Source: Chaenocephalus aceratus (lineage: Eukaryota; Chordata; Actinopteri; Perciformes; Channichthyidae). Taken from it: a stretch of DNA of 64,000 bases. The translations under genes were made by a program, and so were the position numbers. The DNA is taken from positions 22,932,927 to 22,996,926 of the forward strand of contig CM043796.1 in the NCBI GenBank assembly GCA_023974075.1. The letters run 5' to 3'. The notes beneath the pieces are model-generated. The model made no database searches, was not told where the DNA came from, and saw only the letters and a list, made by a program, of their open reading frames with translations. Positions 1,930-29,552 of this stretch are shown here, piece by piece (position 1 is the stretch's first letter; each line of letters begins with the position of its first letter).

Positions 1930-4900
1930 TGCTATGTAAGCCGAAATATTGATTGAAAATCTTTAAAGACCTCCGTGTTTAAGCAGTCCTGTGTACCAAA
2001 GTCTCAGGATCTGAAAAAAAAGTGTAATTTGTTGTTGTTGTGTTTGTGTATGAATCACTATGTTTGCATGATTAATGCAAGCACAACACTCCACTCCAGC
2101 CCACATCTCTGAACAAATGTCATCATGAGACCTACAGTATCCTGGTAACATAAAGGTAAAATAAAAATCATCCTAAACCAATAGCATAATGCTACAATGA
2201 CATATTGTAGCAGGACGGGGGAAATAAAAACAAAGAGAAAAGGAGTGGAATACTGATCCAGCTTATTAACCCAGTTGGATTGTTGGGGACTTTATCCGGT
2301 CAACTGGTGGTATCGCTACAGTGTAGAAGGAAAAATGATTGTATTTAATCCATAAAGTATGAAATCCTACAAAAGTGCTGTAAAATGACTGTTTTTATCT
2401 ATGAAATATCTAAAGCATATACCTCTGTACATCAAGGTCAGTATATCGTTTGTCTAAATCGTGAGAAATTAATCCCGAGACAAGGATTGTTGCCTAAAAT
2501 AAGTTGGGTTTTTGTTAACAAAAAGAACAATAGCACTTCAACACTCTTGCACCTGATTGTGAAGTTACATGCATTGTAGTCCTCATTCATAAAGCACAAA
2601 AAAAGAGGTGGAGGTACAGTGGCTTCAAACATCAGTCCTTTGTCATCGACTCTTCTGTTCTTCCAGGTAAGATCCAGTATGAAAGGTATGGAAGGGCTTA
2701 CACCCAAGGGGTTTCGTTTTTTATTCACATATCCACCCCCACCGCCCTTTTAATGTCGTTTTTCAATCATTCGAGGGTACTCAGTGTGTCACTGCATCAG
2801 CATGGGAGGAATTAGTTTTTTCTTGGCAGCTTTTCTGTTTTCTCTCAGCACATTTCTCTCTTCCTGCCATCACCTGCTCCAGCTTGTTGGCCTTCCTTAA
2901 GTCTGTCCTGTTTGTATGGCTGTCAGTTTAAATCATTACCTTTCAATATTGCGCCATGCACACACATTAAACTTAGGAATTACTGCCTGGAGCATGGTTA
3001 CGGTATACATGTAGAAAGAAATCTCCTTGAGCTCCTTTTTATAAATCATCCAAAATATAACAACCAACACTTTGCTATAATGACTCTCCTTTCCTCTCAC
3101 TGCAGCAGGCTCTCTTTCTTCTTCTCTCTAATCATTTAGCCTACTTATTTGCCTTGATTCATCATTCATTAACCACAACAAAAGTACAGGCTTTCAACAA
3201 TGATTCCATCCAGTGGCTCCCTCTTGGAGTGGCAGCCAAAAGCCTGTTGTTATACAGTAGGCGACACCAAAACGTTCTCACTATGAATGGTAACTAAACA
3301 TAATGATACACCTTGGTTTCTATTTTTACAGTCAGTGTTACTGATGTGTATCAATAAGCACAGTTCATTTTTGAGTTCCACAACCATTTTGTTTAATGTG
3401 CTTTGTCTCTGACTAAACACGTCTTTGGTGAATCATTGTTCTTCAAACAGGCTTGTCCTTTTCCTCAGAAAGACAACATTTCCAGCTTTAATTTGAGTTA
3501 TTACATTGGTTGTAAGGAACAAAACAATTACTCAGAACAAGCTGACCCCTATGTCATGTCACTCCGGGCTAGTGGGGGGGCAGTGATGGTACTTTTTCCT
3601 GAGACTATTAAGCTGTTCGATATATATGGGTTAAAGTTTTAGCCCACATTTTAAAGAGATTTCCAGAAAATGCGCCATTAAAATGTATTACCATCCACTA
3701 CTCGGCTCATTATTGCTCCACTGAGATCTTTCCTTGCAAGTGTTCCTCTCTCTAGTGGCCACTGCACTTGGTTGTAATCTGCTTTGACCAAAACATAAAC
3801 TTGTCAATCTTAGCGAAGCCAATTTTGTTACTCGCAATATTGAGACTTTTCTTCTTTAATTTCCAGCATATCCGTTTTAATGTTCAAATTAAAAATCCAA
3901 AGAAAAAAGAAAAAACAACTGCAACTGTTTTAACTTGAACAAAACAATCACATAATTAAGAAAATTGAGAAAAAATGTTGTTTATTATATGCATTATTGT
4001 GAGATTAAAGCCTAAGTCATGAGGTTCTCCTACTAATATATAACAATACAAAAAAAGACACAACAACATCCATTTAGAGAATTGTCGTTTAATTTCCAAA
4101 TTAAATCTAAGAGGAAGTTACATAACTTAATCTTCAAAACAAGCATTTCCAAACTGCCAGCATCAGTTACTGTTGTGGGGTACTTAAAACATTTATACAC
4201 AAACAGCAAGTGCCCCTCCCCGTGATGTTAACTCAGCACTTTAGTCAGTGTTTTTTTCTTATTGAGAGGCAAAGCATCTAGATAGCACTTTGGAGGGAGA
4301 CACCGGATGAATCATAACATGATGATAACCGCTTTCTCCACTGTCCTACATTAGTATTTTGTCATCCCTCTGTCATTTTCTCCCTCTACCTGGAGCTGGA
4401 GAGAGTCCAAAATCCCTCTGGAAAGCCGCCTGCCTTACATGCAGAGACGACTGTAGTGTGTTTAGAAAACAGCTAACTGGTGACGGATTAGGAGATTTAA
4501 GAAGTAATCCTCCAAAGAGGAAGCGCCCCAAGTCTTGGATATGCTGTCATCACTGTTATTAATAAAGATATATGGGCTTAAATCAGCAAATGTTTGGCTG
4601 TGTTTCCCTGTCTCACTGTACAAAGAGAAACTCCACCCTGAACACAGTGTACCATTCTGTGTCACCTTCTTGTTCTACGAAAGAAGTCATGTGTTTGGTA
4701 ATGTGTCACAGATCTCAAGTATTCTTCCTCATGATTCTACCAATGTCTACAGGATTCTTGTTTTTCATATCCTTATGTAACCATATAATCTAATGTTTAA
4801 TTGTTTTGATGTTTTTTTCTCTCTCGCGGAGATGAATCTAAGGTCACAGGAAGCAGTGTAGGAACCAGACCATTTGGAGAGCTCATTATGTGTTCATTAG

Positions 4901-23968: not shown

Positions 23969-24270
23969 CAATGGACTTTTTTTCTGTGAAGAACCCAGAG
24001 AGGGTTATTTGGTTATTATTTATTTCATAAATAGTGTTATTATATATTTTCAGACTTTATTTTTTCTGTGAAGAACCCAGAGAGGGTTATTTGGTTATTA
24101 TTTATTTCACAAAGTGTTATTTATTTCGTGACTTTTTCTATGAAGATCCCAGAGAGGGTTATTTGGTTATTATTTATTTCATAAATAGTGTTATTTATTT
24201 AATTAATAATGTTATTATTTATTTCCTGACTTTTTTTCTGTGAAGATCCCGGAAAGGGTTATTAATATTT
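23969..24270 (+). repeat. Minisatellite, about 85-bp unit, inside the hAT element
   Basis: About four imperfect units, each with TTTCTGTGAAGA.CCC, then AGAGAGGGTTATTTGG, then ATTATTTATTTC. It lies between the transposase remnant and the right terminus, so it is part of this hAT copy. Confidence 0.8.
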
Positions 24271-26238: not shown

Positions 26239-26643
26239 TGTGATGCCCCTGTGGGTCCATCAGTAGAGAGGGTGTGGCTGTTCTGTCTGTGCTGTATTGG
26301 TTCAGTGATTGCATTGATTACAGTAACTCAGGGCACCTGGGTCTGGTGTCCTTGAAGCCTCTCTGCTCCTCTCTGTGCTCAGCTTCTCCCTGCAGGCACA
26401 CCGGTTTTGTTGAGTATACTATGAGTTTCTTCAGCTGCTTTACTCTGTGCACTTCAACACTCTCACATACATACATGTCCATACAATCCTCACCCTGCAT
26501 TTACATTACTGATACCACTGACAACCACACCTCATACTTTACTGGTTTTGACTTGATTTGTTTGTCCTAAATAAACATATTTTGTTAACCGTCAACATGG
26601 TGTGTCTCCTTTTTGTTGTGGCCTTTTGAGCCAGGTCATAACA
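26239..26643 (+). repeat. 5' LTR
   Basis: 405 bp, from TGTGATGCCCC to CATAACA. It has an AATAAA signal at 26570-26575. The 414-bp 3' copy differs by a 5-bp GATTT duplication, a 4-bp indel and scattered substitutions. Confidence 0.92.
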
Positions 26644-26645
26644 AA

Positions 26646-26658
26646 TGGGGGCTCGTCC
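26646..26658 (+). other. Primer binding site, tRNA-Pro type
   Basis: Two bases after the 5' LTR, the sequence TGGGGGCTCGTCC matches the first 13 bases of the classic tRNA-Pro primer site used by murine leukaemia-type retroviruses and many Ty3/gypsy elements. The match stops after 13 bases. Confidence 0.75.
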
Positions 26659-27029
26659 TACGGGTTATTTGGTTGAAAATGTGTGTAGTGCTCAGAGCAC
26701 ATGGCGTCATTTGAGCAGCTAATTAGTTGATGTGGTCCAGCTGTGTGCTGGCTCGGCGCTGCTATTTGGGGGACACATCATGTTTTTTTGGGTTTCAGGA
26801 AGCTTTAGTGTTTGACATGTCGTCAGGTTTTGTGTGCCAATCAGAAGGTAAGATGTTGCTGCTTGTTACGCTTTTGTAAAGAGTTTTCCCCACTAGGCTT
26901 AAGTGGCGTTTCCCCTTGCGTCTGTTTGTTTTTTTTATAGTGTTGTGGCGACGTGGTTAGTGTCAGCTGTTTTCGGACAGCTGTCTCGCGGTGTTGGCAG
27001 TTTAATACTTTGCTTTCTGATTGGCTATT

Positions 27030-28135
27030 ATGACTTCTTTGTCAGCGTTTGTGGATGCGCCCTCAGTGTCTTTCTTAGATGATTGCCAGAAGGCGCAGTT
27101 GGTCGAAATAGCAGAGCACTATGACATTGCTGTTGTCGGGAGCAAGCGGAAACATGACATTAAAACTGTCATTGTGTCATCTTTGTTTGAGCAGGGGGTG
27201 TTGCAGAAGAGTGAGTCTGGTGCGGCAGGGTTCGTGCCGGTAGTGGTTCAGACAGCTGGTTTGACGTTCGAGCAGCAAAAGGAGCTTTTGGCCATGCAGT
27301 TTGATCAGGAGAGATCGCAGTTGGAGCAGGAGAAGTTACAGTTGGAGAGAAGTTGAGGTTTGAGCAGGAGAAGTTGCAGTTGGAGATGAGGGGTCAGCAG
27401 CGGGAGGTGGAGAAGACGCTGGAGGTGGAAAGGATGAAATGTGAGGTGGATCATGCTAGATTACGGCTGATGGGAGAGGGCAAGTTTTCTCCAGGGGAGG
27501 ATGGTGGTGATAGGTCGGCATCAGGCAGTGGCGATATCATTTCTTACTTGCGACTAGTGCCAAAGTTCAATGAGCGTGACCCGGAATTTTTTTTCACTCT
27601 ATTTGAACGCATAGCAGAGGCAAGAAACTGGTCAGAGTCGGACAGAGTGCTGTTACTTCAGTGTGTACTCACTGGGCGAGCACAGGAAGTCTATTCAGCT
27701 GTTTGTGGCGAAAAGGCTTTGGACTATGATAGAGTAAAATCAGCGGTGTTGAAGTCTTACGAACTGGTTCCTGAAGCGTATCGTCAAAGGTTCAGAAGTT
27801 GGGTCAAGGGAGATAAGCAGACACATGTGGAGTTTATCCGTGATTTAACTTCTCATTTTCAGCAGTGGTGTGCGGCAGCAAAGGTTGCAAGTTTTAACGG
27901 TCTTTGTGAACTCATTGTCTTGGAACAATTTAAAGACATTCCCCCTCAGCATGTGGCCACTTATGTGAATGAACAGAAACCTTCCACTGCGTTTAGAGCT
28001 GCTGAATTAGCGGACCATTTTGTGTTGACACATAAGGGCAGTTTTACTGATAAGTATTCTTGGGGTGATTGGAAACGTGGAGAAGACTGGCTATGCCCGC
28101 GGTGGTGCAAAGTTTTCACCAGGCTCCTCCCGTAG
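27030..28135 (+). pseudogene. Retrotransposon gag with SCAN-like domain, frameshifted
   Basis: The frame begins at ATG 27030 (MTSLSAFVDAP) and contains a Glu/Gln/Lys-rich coiled-coil segment (EQEKLQLE repeats). A one-base loss near 27345 brings a TGA at 27354-27356; the next frame (27353-28135) continues the coiled coil and then the core: YLRLVPKFNERDPEFFFTLF, LLLQCVLTGRAQEVY, LKSYELVPEAYRQRFR, LCELIVLEQFKDIPP, TAFRAAELADHF. This is the all-helical SCAN-like capsid fold of Ty3/gypsy gag. Another shift near 28065 leads into the zinc-knuckle frame, where CHYCRGEG (about 28178-28201) survives but the spacing to the third ligand is altered. At least two shifts make it non-functional as it stands. 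Confidence 0.8.
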
Positions 28136-28319
28136 ATTTGTAGGTACAGGGCGACCCGAGGGGGCCAAAGTGGACCTATGTCATTATTGCAGAGGAGAGG
28201 GTGTCCGTTGCTGGAAACTAAGGGGAAGCCTCATTTGTCACCACATGCTCCAGCCATGTGTTGTTCTGCCGTGTTGAAAAAAAAAACCGTTGGCATGGTG
28301 CCTGATAGGAAGCCGATTT

Positions 28320-28760
28320 GTGCTGACCCGGATGCGGGTTCTGGTTTTGAGCCGTTCATCACTGAAGCGGTTGTATCAGTAGTCGGTAGTGACAAATATG
28401 TGCCGATTAAGGTGTTGCGTGATACAGCGGCTAGATACTCATTCATTGTTTAGTCAGTGTTGCCTTTTTCGTCAGACAGAAATGGGGGATTTTGTGCTGA
28501 TGAGGGGCATGGAGATGGGCTTGATTCCTGTGCGACGTCATACAGTAGTGCTGGATTGTGAGCTGATACGGGGAGTTGTGTCTATCGGCGTGCGTCCCGC
28601 GTTGCCACTTGATGGGATACATATGATTTTGGGCAACGATCTCGCTGGTAGTGCTGTGTGGGCTGGTGTTCCACCGCCTGTGGTGGTTTCCAGGACGGTG
28701 GCATCTGGGGAGCCAGATGAGAGTGGTTTGCAATTTCCAAGTGTGTCTCCAGTTTATACT
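28320..28760 (+). pseudogene. Degraded retropepsin-like protease region
   Basis: After gag, one frame gives YVPIKVLRDTAARYSFI (28400-28448) and then a stop. The expected catalytic Asp-Thr-Gly has become DTA (28421-28429). A shifted frame then reads LPLDGIHMILGNDLAG (about 28600-28645), which matches the conserved Ile-Leu-Gly flap of retroelement proteases. No reverse transcriptase motif follows. Confidence 0.7.
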
Positions 28761-28874
28761 ATTACGCGTGTGCAGAGCCGTAGGATGTCCACTGACCTAC
28801 CTGTTTCGGAGTCTGGAAAAAGTGGTCCAGCACGGTCCTTTGAGATCGAGAAAGAGAGGAAACCCCGCAAAGCG

Positions 28875-28964
28875 AGGCCGAAGGAGAGGAGGCCGAAGGA
28901 GAGGAGGCCGAAGGAGAGGAGGCCGAAGGAGAGGAGGCCGAAGAAGAGAAGGCCGAAGGAGGTC
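28875..28964 (+). repeat. 15-bp tandem repeat encoding a basic RPKER-like motif
   Basis: Six units of AGGCCGAAGGAGAGG, the last two diverged. In the protease frame each unit encodes a permutation of Arg-Pro-Lys-Glu-Arg. It immediately precedes the HMG-box fragment, which is in a different frame. It may be an expanded basic linker of the captured gene. Confidence 0.9.
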
Positions 28965-28968
28965 GGCG

Positions 28969-29067
28969 AGGCCGATGAGCGCCTACATGCTGTGGCTCAA
29001 TGCCAGCCAACCCAAGAAGGAGTGGGACATAAAGGCAGTGGAGGCAAAGAAGCAGTACGAAATCGCA
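28969..29067 (+). pseudogene. SSRP1: SSRP1-like HMG-box fragment captured inside an LTR retrotransposon
   Basis: In one frame the bases encode RPMSAYMLWLNAS, directly followed by QPKKEWDIKAVEAKKQYEIA. The first 13 residues match the start of the HMG box of SSRP1, the HMG subunit of the FACT histone chaperone, as I remember it. The second part resembles the last helix of the same box (KKEEWD, KA, YE). The middle of the box, roughly 30 residues, is absent, and the joint is in frame. The fragment lies after the protease and before the polypurine tract, where pol should be, and in a different frame from gag-protease. No introns are visible. Host origin is inferred from this residue match. Confidence 0.72.
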
Positions 29068-29126
29068 AGGCTGGAGTTAAGAAGAAGGATGTTGGGTTGT
29101 CGTGGACCCCTTTGGGGCCCCGTCTT

Positions 29127-29137
29127 AAGGGGGGGGG
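29127..29137 (+). other. Polypurine tract
   Basis: AAGGGGGGGGG one base before the 3' LTR, the expected primer for plus-strand DNA synthesis. Confidence 0.85.
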
Positions 29138-29138
29138 C

Positions 29139-29552
29139 TGTGATGCCCCTGTGGGTCCATCAGTAGAGAGGGTGTGGCTGTTCTGTCTGTGCTGCATTGG
29201 TTCAGTGATTGCATTGATTACAGTAACTCAGGGCACCTGGGTCTGGTGTCCTTGAAGCCTCTCTGCTCCTCTCTGTTTTCGCTCTGCTTCTCCCTGCAGG
29301 CACCCCGGTTTTGTTGAGTATACTATGAGTTTCTTCAGCTGCTTTACTTTGTGCACTTCAACACTCTCACACACATACATGTCCATACAGTCCTCACCCT
29401 GCATTTACATTACTGATACCACTGACATCCACACCTCATACTTTACTGGTTTTGACTTGATTTGATTTGTTTGTCCTAAATAAACATATTTTGTTAACCG
29501 TCAACATGGTGTGTCTCCTTTTTGTTGTGGCCTTTTAAGCCAGGTCATAACA
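29139..29552 (+). repeat. 3' LTR
   Basis: 414 bp with the same TGTGATG start and CATAACA end as the 5' LTR, followed by the CGTAA duplication at 29553-29557. Its AATAAA is conserved. Confidence 0.92.

Follow-up and report, generated by a model that had tools for sequence, protein, structure and literature searches.

The HMG-like stretch examined here is a piece of the SSRP1 gene lying within a 3.3 kb LTR element that is flanked by a 5-bp target duplication. The element sits in a window of 64,000 nucleotides, the whole stretch of Chaenocephalus aceratus DNA analysed (C12:22932927-22996926). Judged from sequence, it very probably (roughly 93%) belongs to an amplified, non-autonomous family of Gmr1-like Ty3/Gypsy elements whose pol has given way to a stretch of spliced SSRP1 mRNA. 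In the same genome, a sister lineage holds spliced SNRNP25 in almost the same position. The best explanation of both cargoes, we infer, is that templates were switched between the element's RNA and host mRNA and that the products then spread with borrowed enzymes.

Translation of window positions 28969-29067 gives RPMSAYMLWLNASQPKKEWDIKAVEAKKQYEIA. In a search of this translation against PDB sequences the top four matches were all SSRP1, the best being 6l34_A (E 8e-9). This match falls into two stretches, with the two halves of the fragment aligning separately to two parts of the SSRP1 HMG box. The best match other than SSRP1 was HMG-D (E 6e-6). At the DNA level, local alignment of the RPMSAYMLWLNAS part with the SSRP1 gene of the same genome gives 37/38 identical bases and that of the exon D part 45/47. 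Perfect runs of at least 24 nt to spliced host SSRP1 mRNA occur in all 21 copies read and in none of the 21 when the sequence is reversed, so the match is far beyond chance. Both a chance match and another HMG protein were ruled out as origins of the stretch.

The original prediction, made from the letters of this DNA, had proposed an SSRP1 HMG-box origin, which the PDB search and the host gene in the same genome bear out; the possibility of a better match outside the host failed, the best match being host SSRP1. It had also proposed that about 30 central HMG residues are absent without loss of frame, and compared with the host 31 residues are indeed replaced by two (QP), a net loss of 29, in frame. 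The proposed extent, 28969-29067, was right as to SSRP1 content and too short: the captured piece runs from about 28831 to 29089, beginning upstream of the HMG box (FDFEIETK) and continuing beyond it. The HMG frame differs from that of the protease ORF, and a frame-shifted tail gave chance matches only when searched against PDB sequences.

Element layout and spliced SSRP1 origin

The element extends from 26239 to 29552 (Table 1) and, as expected of an LTR retrotransposon, is bounded by a pair of nearly identical LTRs that start with TG and end with CA. The 5' and 3' LTRs agree at 397/405 aligned bases with 9 gap columns, and CGTAA flanks the element on both sides, which upholds the earlier claim of intact LTR boundaries and a target duplication. 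The TGGGGGCTCGTCC motif behind the 5' LTR, a probable primer binding site, looks like one for tRNA-Pro. The exon A part reads RSFDFEIETK in most other copies, and the match of the exon B remnant begins two bases before that of exon A ends (28849..28850). Host exon C ends in the 6 nt AAGGAG, the counterpart of the AAGAAG in the bridge across the deleted HMG core. A polypurine tract, AAGGGGGGGGGC, lies ahead of the 3' LTR. The gag is of the SCAN type (PF02023), which excerpts of two publications tie to Gmr1-like Gypsy elements (PMC3424704, PMC4131045).

Table 1. Features of the SSRP1-carrying LTR element, in window coordinates.
Feature	Position	Strand	Basis
Target-site duplication, left copy, CGTAA	26234..26238	.	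flank comparison
5' LTR, TGTGATGC...CATAACA	26239..26643	+	pairwise alignment with 3' LTR
Probable primer binding site, TGGGGGCTCGTCC	26646..26658	+	sequence read
gag, interrupted	27030..28135	+	ORF pieces 27021-27356 and 27305-28135
SCAN domain within gag	27770..28036	+	Pfam PF02023, E 4.9e-18
Broken protease region with a frame change and DTA in place of the DTG of relatives	28136..28823	+	ORF reading, relatives
SSRP1 exon A remnant, RSF..EIE	28831..28850	+	host gene alignment
SSRP1 exon B remnant, KERKPRK	28849..28872	+	24/24 bases identical to host
15-nt repeat array, GAGGCCGAAGGAGAG, 5.9 copies, at exon B/C junction	28874..28961	+	unit resembles host exon C start
SSRP1 exon C part, RRPKEVG..RPMSAYMLWLNAS, with 8-nt deletion ahead of RPMSAYM	28940..29008	+	host alignment
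AACCC + AAGAAG, bridge across deleted HMG core	29009..29019	+	host alignment
SSRP1 exon D part, EWDIKAVEAKKQYEIA, spliced to exon C, 950-nt intron absent	29020..29067	+	junction 21/22
SSRP1 exon E remnant, AGVKK	29071..29089	+	17/19, weak alone; clearer in copy L028
3' tail belonging to the element, including the polypurine tract; pol-bearing relative homologous again from here	29092..29138	+	relative comparison
3' LTR	29139..29552	+	pairwise alignment with 5' LTR
Target-site duplication, right copy, CGTAA	29553..29557	.	flank comparison

The comparison with host SSRP1 concerns one assembly, the window's own (1.064 Gb, 3032 contigs). A PF03531 profile search of this genome returned a single match (one candidate, one scored) at C10:15802684, the host SSRP1 gene (C10:15.80 Mb). 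The insert maps to host exons A, B, C, D and E in order, the corresponding host parts being A (RSFDFEIETK), B (KEKTVKVVKEKKERKPRK), C (RRPKEVG..RPMSAYMLWLNAS), D (EWDIKAVEAKKQYEIA) and E (AGVKK). Copy L015 is locally identical to the host at 32/32, 53/55, 19/19, 38/38 and 46/47 bases for A, B, C1, C2 and D, respectively, or 188/191 locally aligned bases in sum. The window copy is more worn, with 22/27, 24/24 of the 55-base piece, 19/19, 37/38 and 45/47. The host introns between B and C, C and D, and D and E measure 95, 950 and 73 nt (GT..AG exon ends read), and their 14-mers are absent from all 21 inserts. The spliced C/D junction, AAGGAG-GAGTGGGACATAAAG, is matched at 22/22 bases in 18/21 copies and at 21/22 in the window; the junction area is deleted in L017 and L028, and the D/E junction is kept in L028 alone (45/48, one gap). 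The absence of three introns together with the presence of splice junctions identifies spliced SSRP1 mRNA as the source, and by its base sequence the insert is derived from such a host message. The original prediction had suggested comparing the fragment with the local SSRP1 exons; the exons lie in order, three introns are missing and the insert is bounded by coding sequence at either end, exon A at one and exon E at the other. Its claim that pol of an LTR element was replaced through recombination with a host transcript thus gains support from the host gene in the same genome. Near C10:15808835-15808855 (L031) the A-run of host exon E is apparently one base shorter than in the L028 insert, which puts the assembled exon E out of frame and is possibly an assembly error.

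At the 5' joint, homology to the pol-bearing relatives L034 and L035 stops at 28823 (AAAAGT) and host exon A begins after seven bases, GGTCCAG (28824-28830), that match neither the relative as read nor host exon A. Exon A passes to exon B at a common ACAAAG (host GAGACAAAG and GATACAAAG). Where B meets C, a 15-nt unit resembling the beginning of exon C has multiplied; its number varies among the window (28874-28961) and L009-L028, and the reading frame shifts inside the array in L016, L017, L027 and L028. The host 8-nt stretch CGCCCAAG is absent before RPMSAYM in all 18 copies with the anchor (3/21 lack it). It is retained in protein P0008 of Champsocephalus esox, which reads VGTPKRPMSA. The HMG core is gone between NAS and KEEWD, and the AACCC of the bridge is also present inside the deleted host stretch. 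The 3' joint reads GTTAAGAAG-AAGGATGTT; at this point the relative has CTGGATATTTGG. With a GGA match at the 3' joint and the ACAAAG repeat at A/B, the junctions would fit template switching. The joints are alike, bar point changes, in 21/21 copies read. Exon skipping was rejected as the cause of the gaps: the HMG gap starts within exon C and ends 6 nt before the end of that exon, and the gap in the SNRNP25 cargo described below lies inside exons 3 and 4.

A family of copies, its relatives and a second cargo

The SSRP1 cargo is present at many places in the genome. We searched with segment 28840-29140 and scored the best 40 of 75 first-look candidates, obtaining at least 40 matches at no fewer than 39 places (two matches form a tandem repeat in one element). 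The copies are 84-100% identical over the matched part, and among the 40 scored the whole query was matched by the window alone. Twenty of the 38 other places were read (L009-L028), which with the window makes 21 copies. In every one of them the SSRP1 piece lies between the pro end and a short tail that leads to the polypurine tract and the 3' LTR, so that the insert occupies the same slot between LTRs at different genomic places. The distance from pro end to tail is 246-358 nt, which leaves no room for pol. Five further tails, chosen for a later match start, all contained SSRP1. The 5' LTR was undetected by blast in L010, L011, L017, L023 and L024 and partial in L009. A perfect 5-bp target duplication was present in half of the ten copies compared (the window, L016, L020, L021 and L025) and not found in L015, L019, L022, L026 and L014; L019 and L014 have a truncated LTR and the right end of L014 is an arbitrary coordinate. 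In L015 the two LTRs align without a difference over 433 bases (four flanking), indicating that some copies moved recently. A search for further copies of the HMG segment had been proposed with the original prediction; it upholds the capture, which is family-wide rather than private to one element.

Several copies are rearranged. A short gag repeat (window about 27295-27391) is greatly expanded in L013 (about 3294-3867) and L024 (about 2029-3492), and in L020 (5534-7103) the pro end, the SSRP1 piece and a partial LTR are tandemly duplicated within one element. L016, L020, L027 and L028 carry the same SSRP1 insert under another, shorter LTR type (partial match, about 80-91%); either reshuffling has brought the cargo together with different LTR types, or the capture is older than the split of these types.

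Relatives with pol are present in the same genome. A search with protein P0002 (pro then integrase), in which the best 118 of 3651 candidates were scored, gave seven best matches that are 87-90% identical over most of the length of P0002; three of them fall within stop-free open frames, 785-1457 codons long. Relative L035 is 95-96% identical to the window element in gag DNA and 89-92% in pro. The order in L035/L036, read as two pieces separated by a short stretch, is pro, integrase (Integrase_H2C2, rve), RVT_1 and RNase H; integrase, RT and RNase H are all absent from the window element. Integrase upstream of RT, a mark of Gmr1, was found in this one relative. Downstream of RNase H the relative has the same tail and polypurine tract, followed by an LTR of the shorter type, and its homology to the window restarts near 29092. 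The family thus resembles Gmr1-like Ty3/Gypsy elements in the SCAN-type gag of the window element and the integrase ahead of RT in the relative, and differs in that the window member lacks pol. Pol-bearing relatives able to act in trans therefore exist, and presumably did so.

SSRP1 is one of two cargoes. Protein P0017 of Gymnodraco acuticeps has the same flanks and carries SNRNP25, the U11/U12 25 kDa protein (PDB 8r7n_B, E 3e-37); P0010 has the 5' joint of P0017, and P0018 and P0021 of Dissostichus eleginoides also carry SNRNP25. In the window's genome this cargo occurs at no fewer than three places (C17:23209483, C5:25056000 and C7:1313733). The captured copies came from a protein search with at least 98 matches among the best 150 of 173 candidates, most of them shared flanks or host exons; a Pfam SNRNP25 search of the same genome gave one match of 10 candidates, the host gene only. 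In L042 (the C17:23209483 region, 1543-1958) pieces of five host SNRNP25 exons lie end to end between pro and tail, and none of the SNRNP25 intron 14-mers was found there. The pieces are 83-100% identical to host SNRNP25, below the level seen for SSRP1, so the SNRNP25 capture is probably the older. Compared with the SSRP1 cargo, its 5' joint is shifted downstream by about 18 codons; the place is thus nearly, not exactly, the same, and the captures are separate events. Proteins P0019 and P0020 of Pogonophryne albipinna contain an SNRNP25 piece with the internal gap of the captured copies and without the family flanks; P0020 also has Tc1-type transposase domains.

Coding capacity, proposed mechanism and alternatives

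The SSRP1 cargo is also found in five Champsocephalus esox proteins (six matches among 38 candidates, the sixth being a Gymnodraco protein), and the nearest named sources of cargo-bearing proteins are Antarctic notothenioids. P0008 and P0013 read the HMG frame, and P0014-P0016 the shifted frame seen in the window. Of the 21 copies, 16 have a pro frame that stays open across the insert, and in most of these 16 the HMG bases read as EADERLHAVAQ... The HMG frame coincides with the pro frame in three (L017, L027 and L028), two of which have an upstream stop, and is out of frame in 18. A complete three-helix HMG box was not found, as the core is deleted in all 21 copies read; it is also missing from P0008 and P0013. 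Pfam HMG_box scores fall below the 25.4-bit cut-off (13.9 bits for the window, 16.3 for P0008). SSRP1 and SNRNP25 are both in frame at the 5' joint, which could have arisen by chance (1 in 9) or could reflect selection to keep a frame open. Codon-position counts consist mainly of changes found in the window copy alone and are uninformative on selection.

A working HMG protein from the cargo is unlikely, as is a chromatin role. The reading in which the cargo forms a working HMG-type part fused to gag-pro and aids integration or packaging could draw on P0008, where the SSRP1 piece is in one frame with the pro tail, and on the in-frame SNRNP25 of L042. Set against the missing core, the rarity of a shared frame and the sub-threshold Pfam scores it is highly improbable. 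The original prediction had floated an effect of the HMG box on integration or packaging; with the core absent in every copy and the frame differing in 18 of 21, that idea is unsupported. Most likely the cargo is a passenger or spacer rather than a working HMG protein.

The capture, we infer, most likely proceeded as follows. SSRP1 mRNA would have been packaged together with element RNA, and reverse transcriptase, having copied the 3' end of the element, would have changed over to exon E of the SSRP1 mRNA at a short matching stretch. Copying through exons D, C and B would have been followed by a jump to exon A at the 6-nt repeat ACAAAG and a switch back to element RNA at the pro end, so that integrase and RT were skipped. 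The chimera would have kept LTRs, PBS, polypurine tract and gag, and with these, pol-bearing relatives could have supplied the enzymes for its copying to dozens of places. Loss of the HMG core and of the 8 nt, and growth of the 15-nt repeat at the exon junction, would either have preceded the spread or accompanied it. Each of the two template switches and of the internal jumps could have been an event of its own.

Two other routes would also bring SSRP1 into an LTR element. A LINE-made processed pseudogene, inserted in the element and then carried along, would lack introns like any processed copy. This route is very unlikely: the insert has coding sequence at both ends and continues into the element tail, it stands precisely where pol is lacking, and an unrelated spliced mRNA, SNRNP25, occupies almost the same position in the sister lineage. 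The original prediction had itself named a processed pseudogene with its own poly-A and target duplication as the alternative. At the joints neither a poly-A nor a repeat resembling a nested target duplication was seen by eye, and we rejected it. Uptake of genomic SSRP1 DNA by read-through or recombination, for which no supporting evidence was found, has next to no probability, as the inserts hold no intron 14-mers; the spliced junctions refute an unspliced genomic capture for SSRP1.

The cargo might instead matter as RNA. Perfect matches of 24-45 nt could let small RNAs against the element reach host SSRP1 mRNA, or the reverse. This is an unlikely reading: the perfect runs in every copy read speak for it, yet they may reflect recent capture only. 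FACT represses retroelements, and the cargo could have been kept as host RNA so that silencing small RNAs would also strike a FACT subunit needed by the host, with the host gene a "hostage" or FACT lowered. We regard this version as decidedly unlikely; if it were true, the SNRNP25 lineage would be the same trick with another essential gene. As a precedent for action at the RNA level, excerpts on a moth describe an LTR-linked retrocopy that makes piRNAs against its parent gene (PMC9674220).

Relation to known captures

LTR elements can acquire, copy and spread host gene fragments, and capture of host mRNA by them is regarded as the first step towards a transducing virus and as a source of new chimeric genes. 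In transducing retroviruses a host mRNA piece replaces viral genes and a helper is needed; the fish element, in contrast, has neither env nor a cell-growth gene, and its fragment is not a working protein. Bs1 of maize is without working pol and its host pieces are spliced. LTR-mediated retroposition in animals was reportedly described by Tan et al. 2016. To our knowledge amplified vertebrate captures have seldom been set out base by base.

Bs1 is the nearest named element, an LTR element described in the excerpts available as carrying pieces of three host genes (PMC13317346, PMC5408686). The likeness lies in host gene pieces carried in an LTR element. Bs1 is a plant element with several cargoes per element, whereas the fish family has one cargo per lineage, different cargoes between lineages and dozens of copies. 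By analogy, and going by partial texts, the family appears to fit LTR-mediated retroposition by template switching (PMC5408686, PMC8277862, PMC13317346), a process involving LTR RNA and host mRNA in animals (PMC5408686, PMC8277862), with zebrafish among the species named (PMC5408686) and amplification of an LTR-host chimera mentioned for the CG17604_r family (PMC8277862). Unlike those cases, the fish family has two cargoes at nearly the same place. Pxyfem of Plutella xylostella, in the excerpts of its description, consists of Masc retrocopies fused to LTR gag (PMC9674220) and is similar in joining a spliced host mRNA piece to LTR element sequence in many copies; it forms W-linked tandem arrays with piRNAs in sex determination, whereas the fish family is known here from sequence alone. 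Among the papers listed in a literature search, none was recognisable from its title or the start of its abstract as describing a capture of SSRP1 or SNRNP25 by a retrotransposon. The kind of capture is thus already known from Bs1 and LTR-mediated retroposition, while an amplified two-cargo family in a vertebrate is unusual. Parent gene, spliced exons, junctions and pol-bearing relatives are all readable here in one genome, and it can be asked whether the pro end is favoured for template switching, whether the cargoes are neutral and whether their small RNAs touch the parent genes.

Outside the element, positions 23978-24200 of the window hold a tandem array of an 82-nt unit in 2.9 copies.
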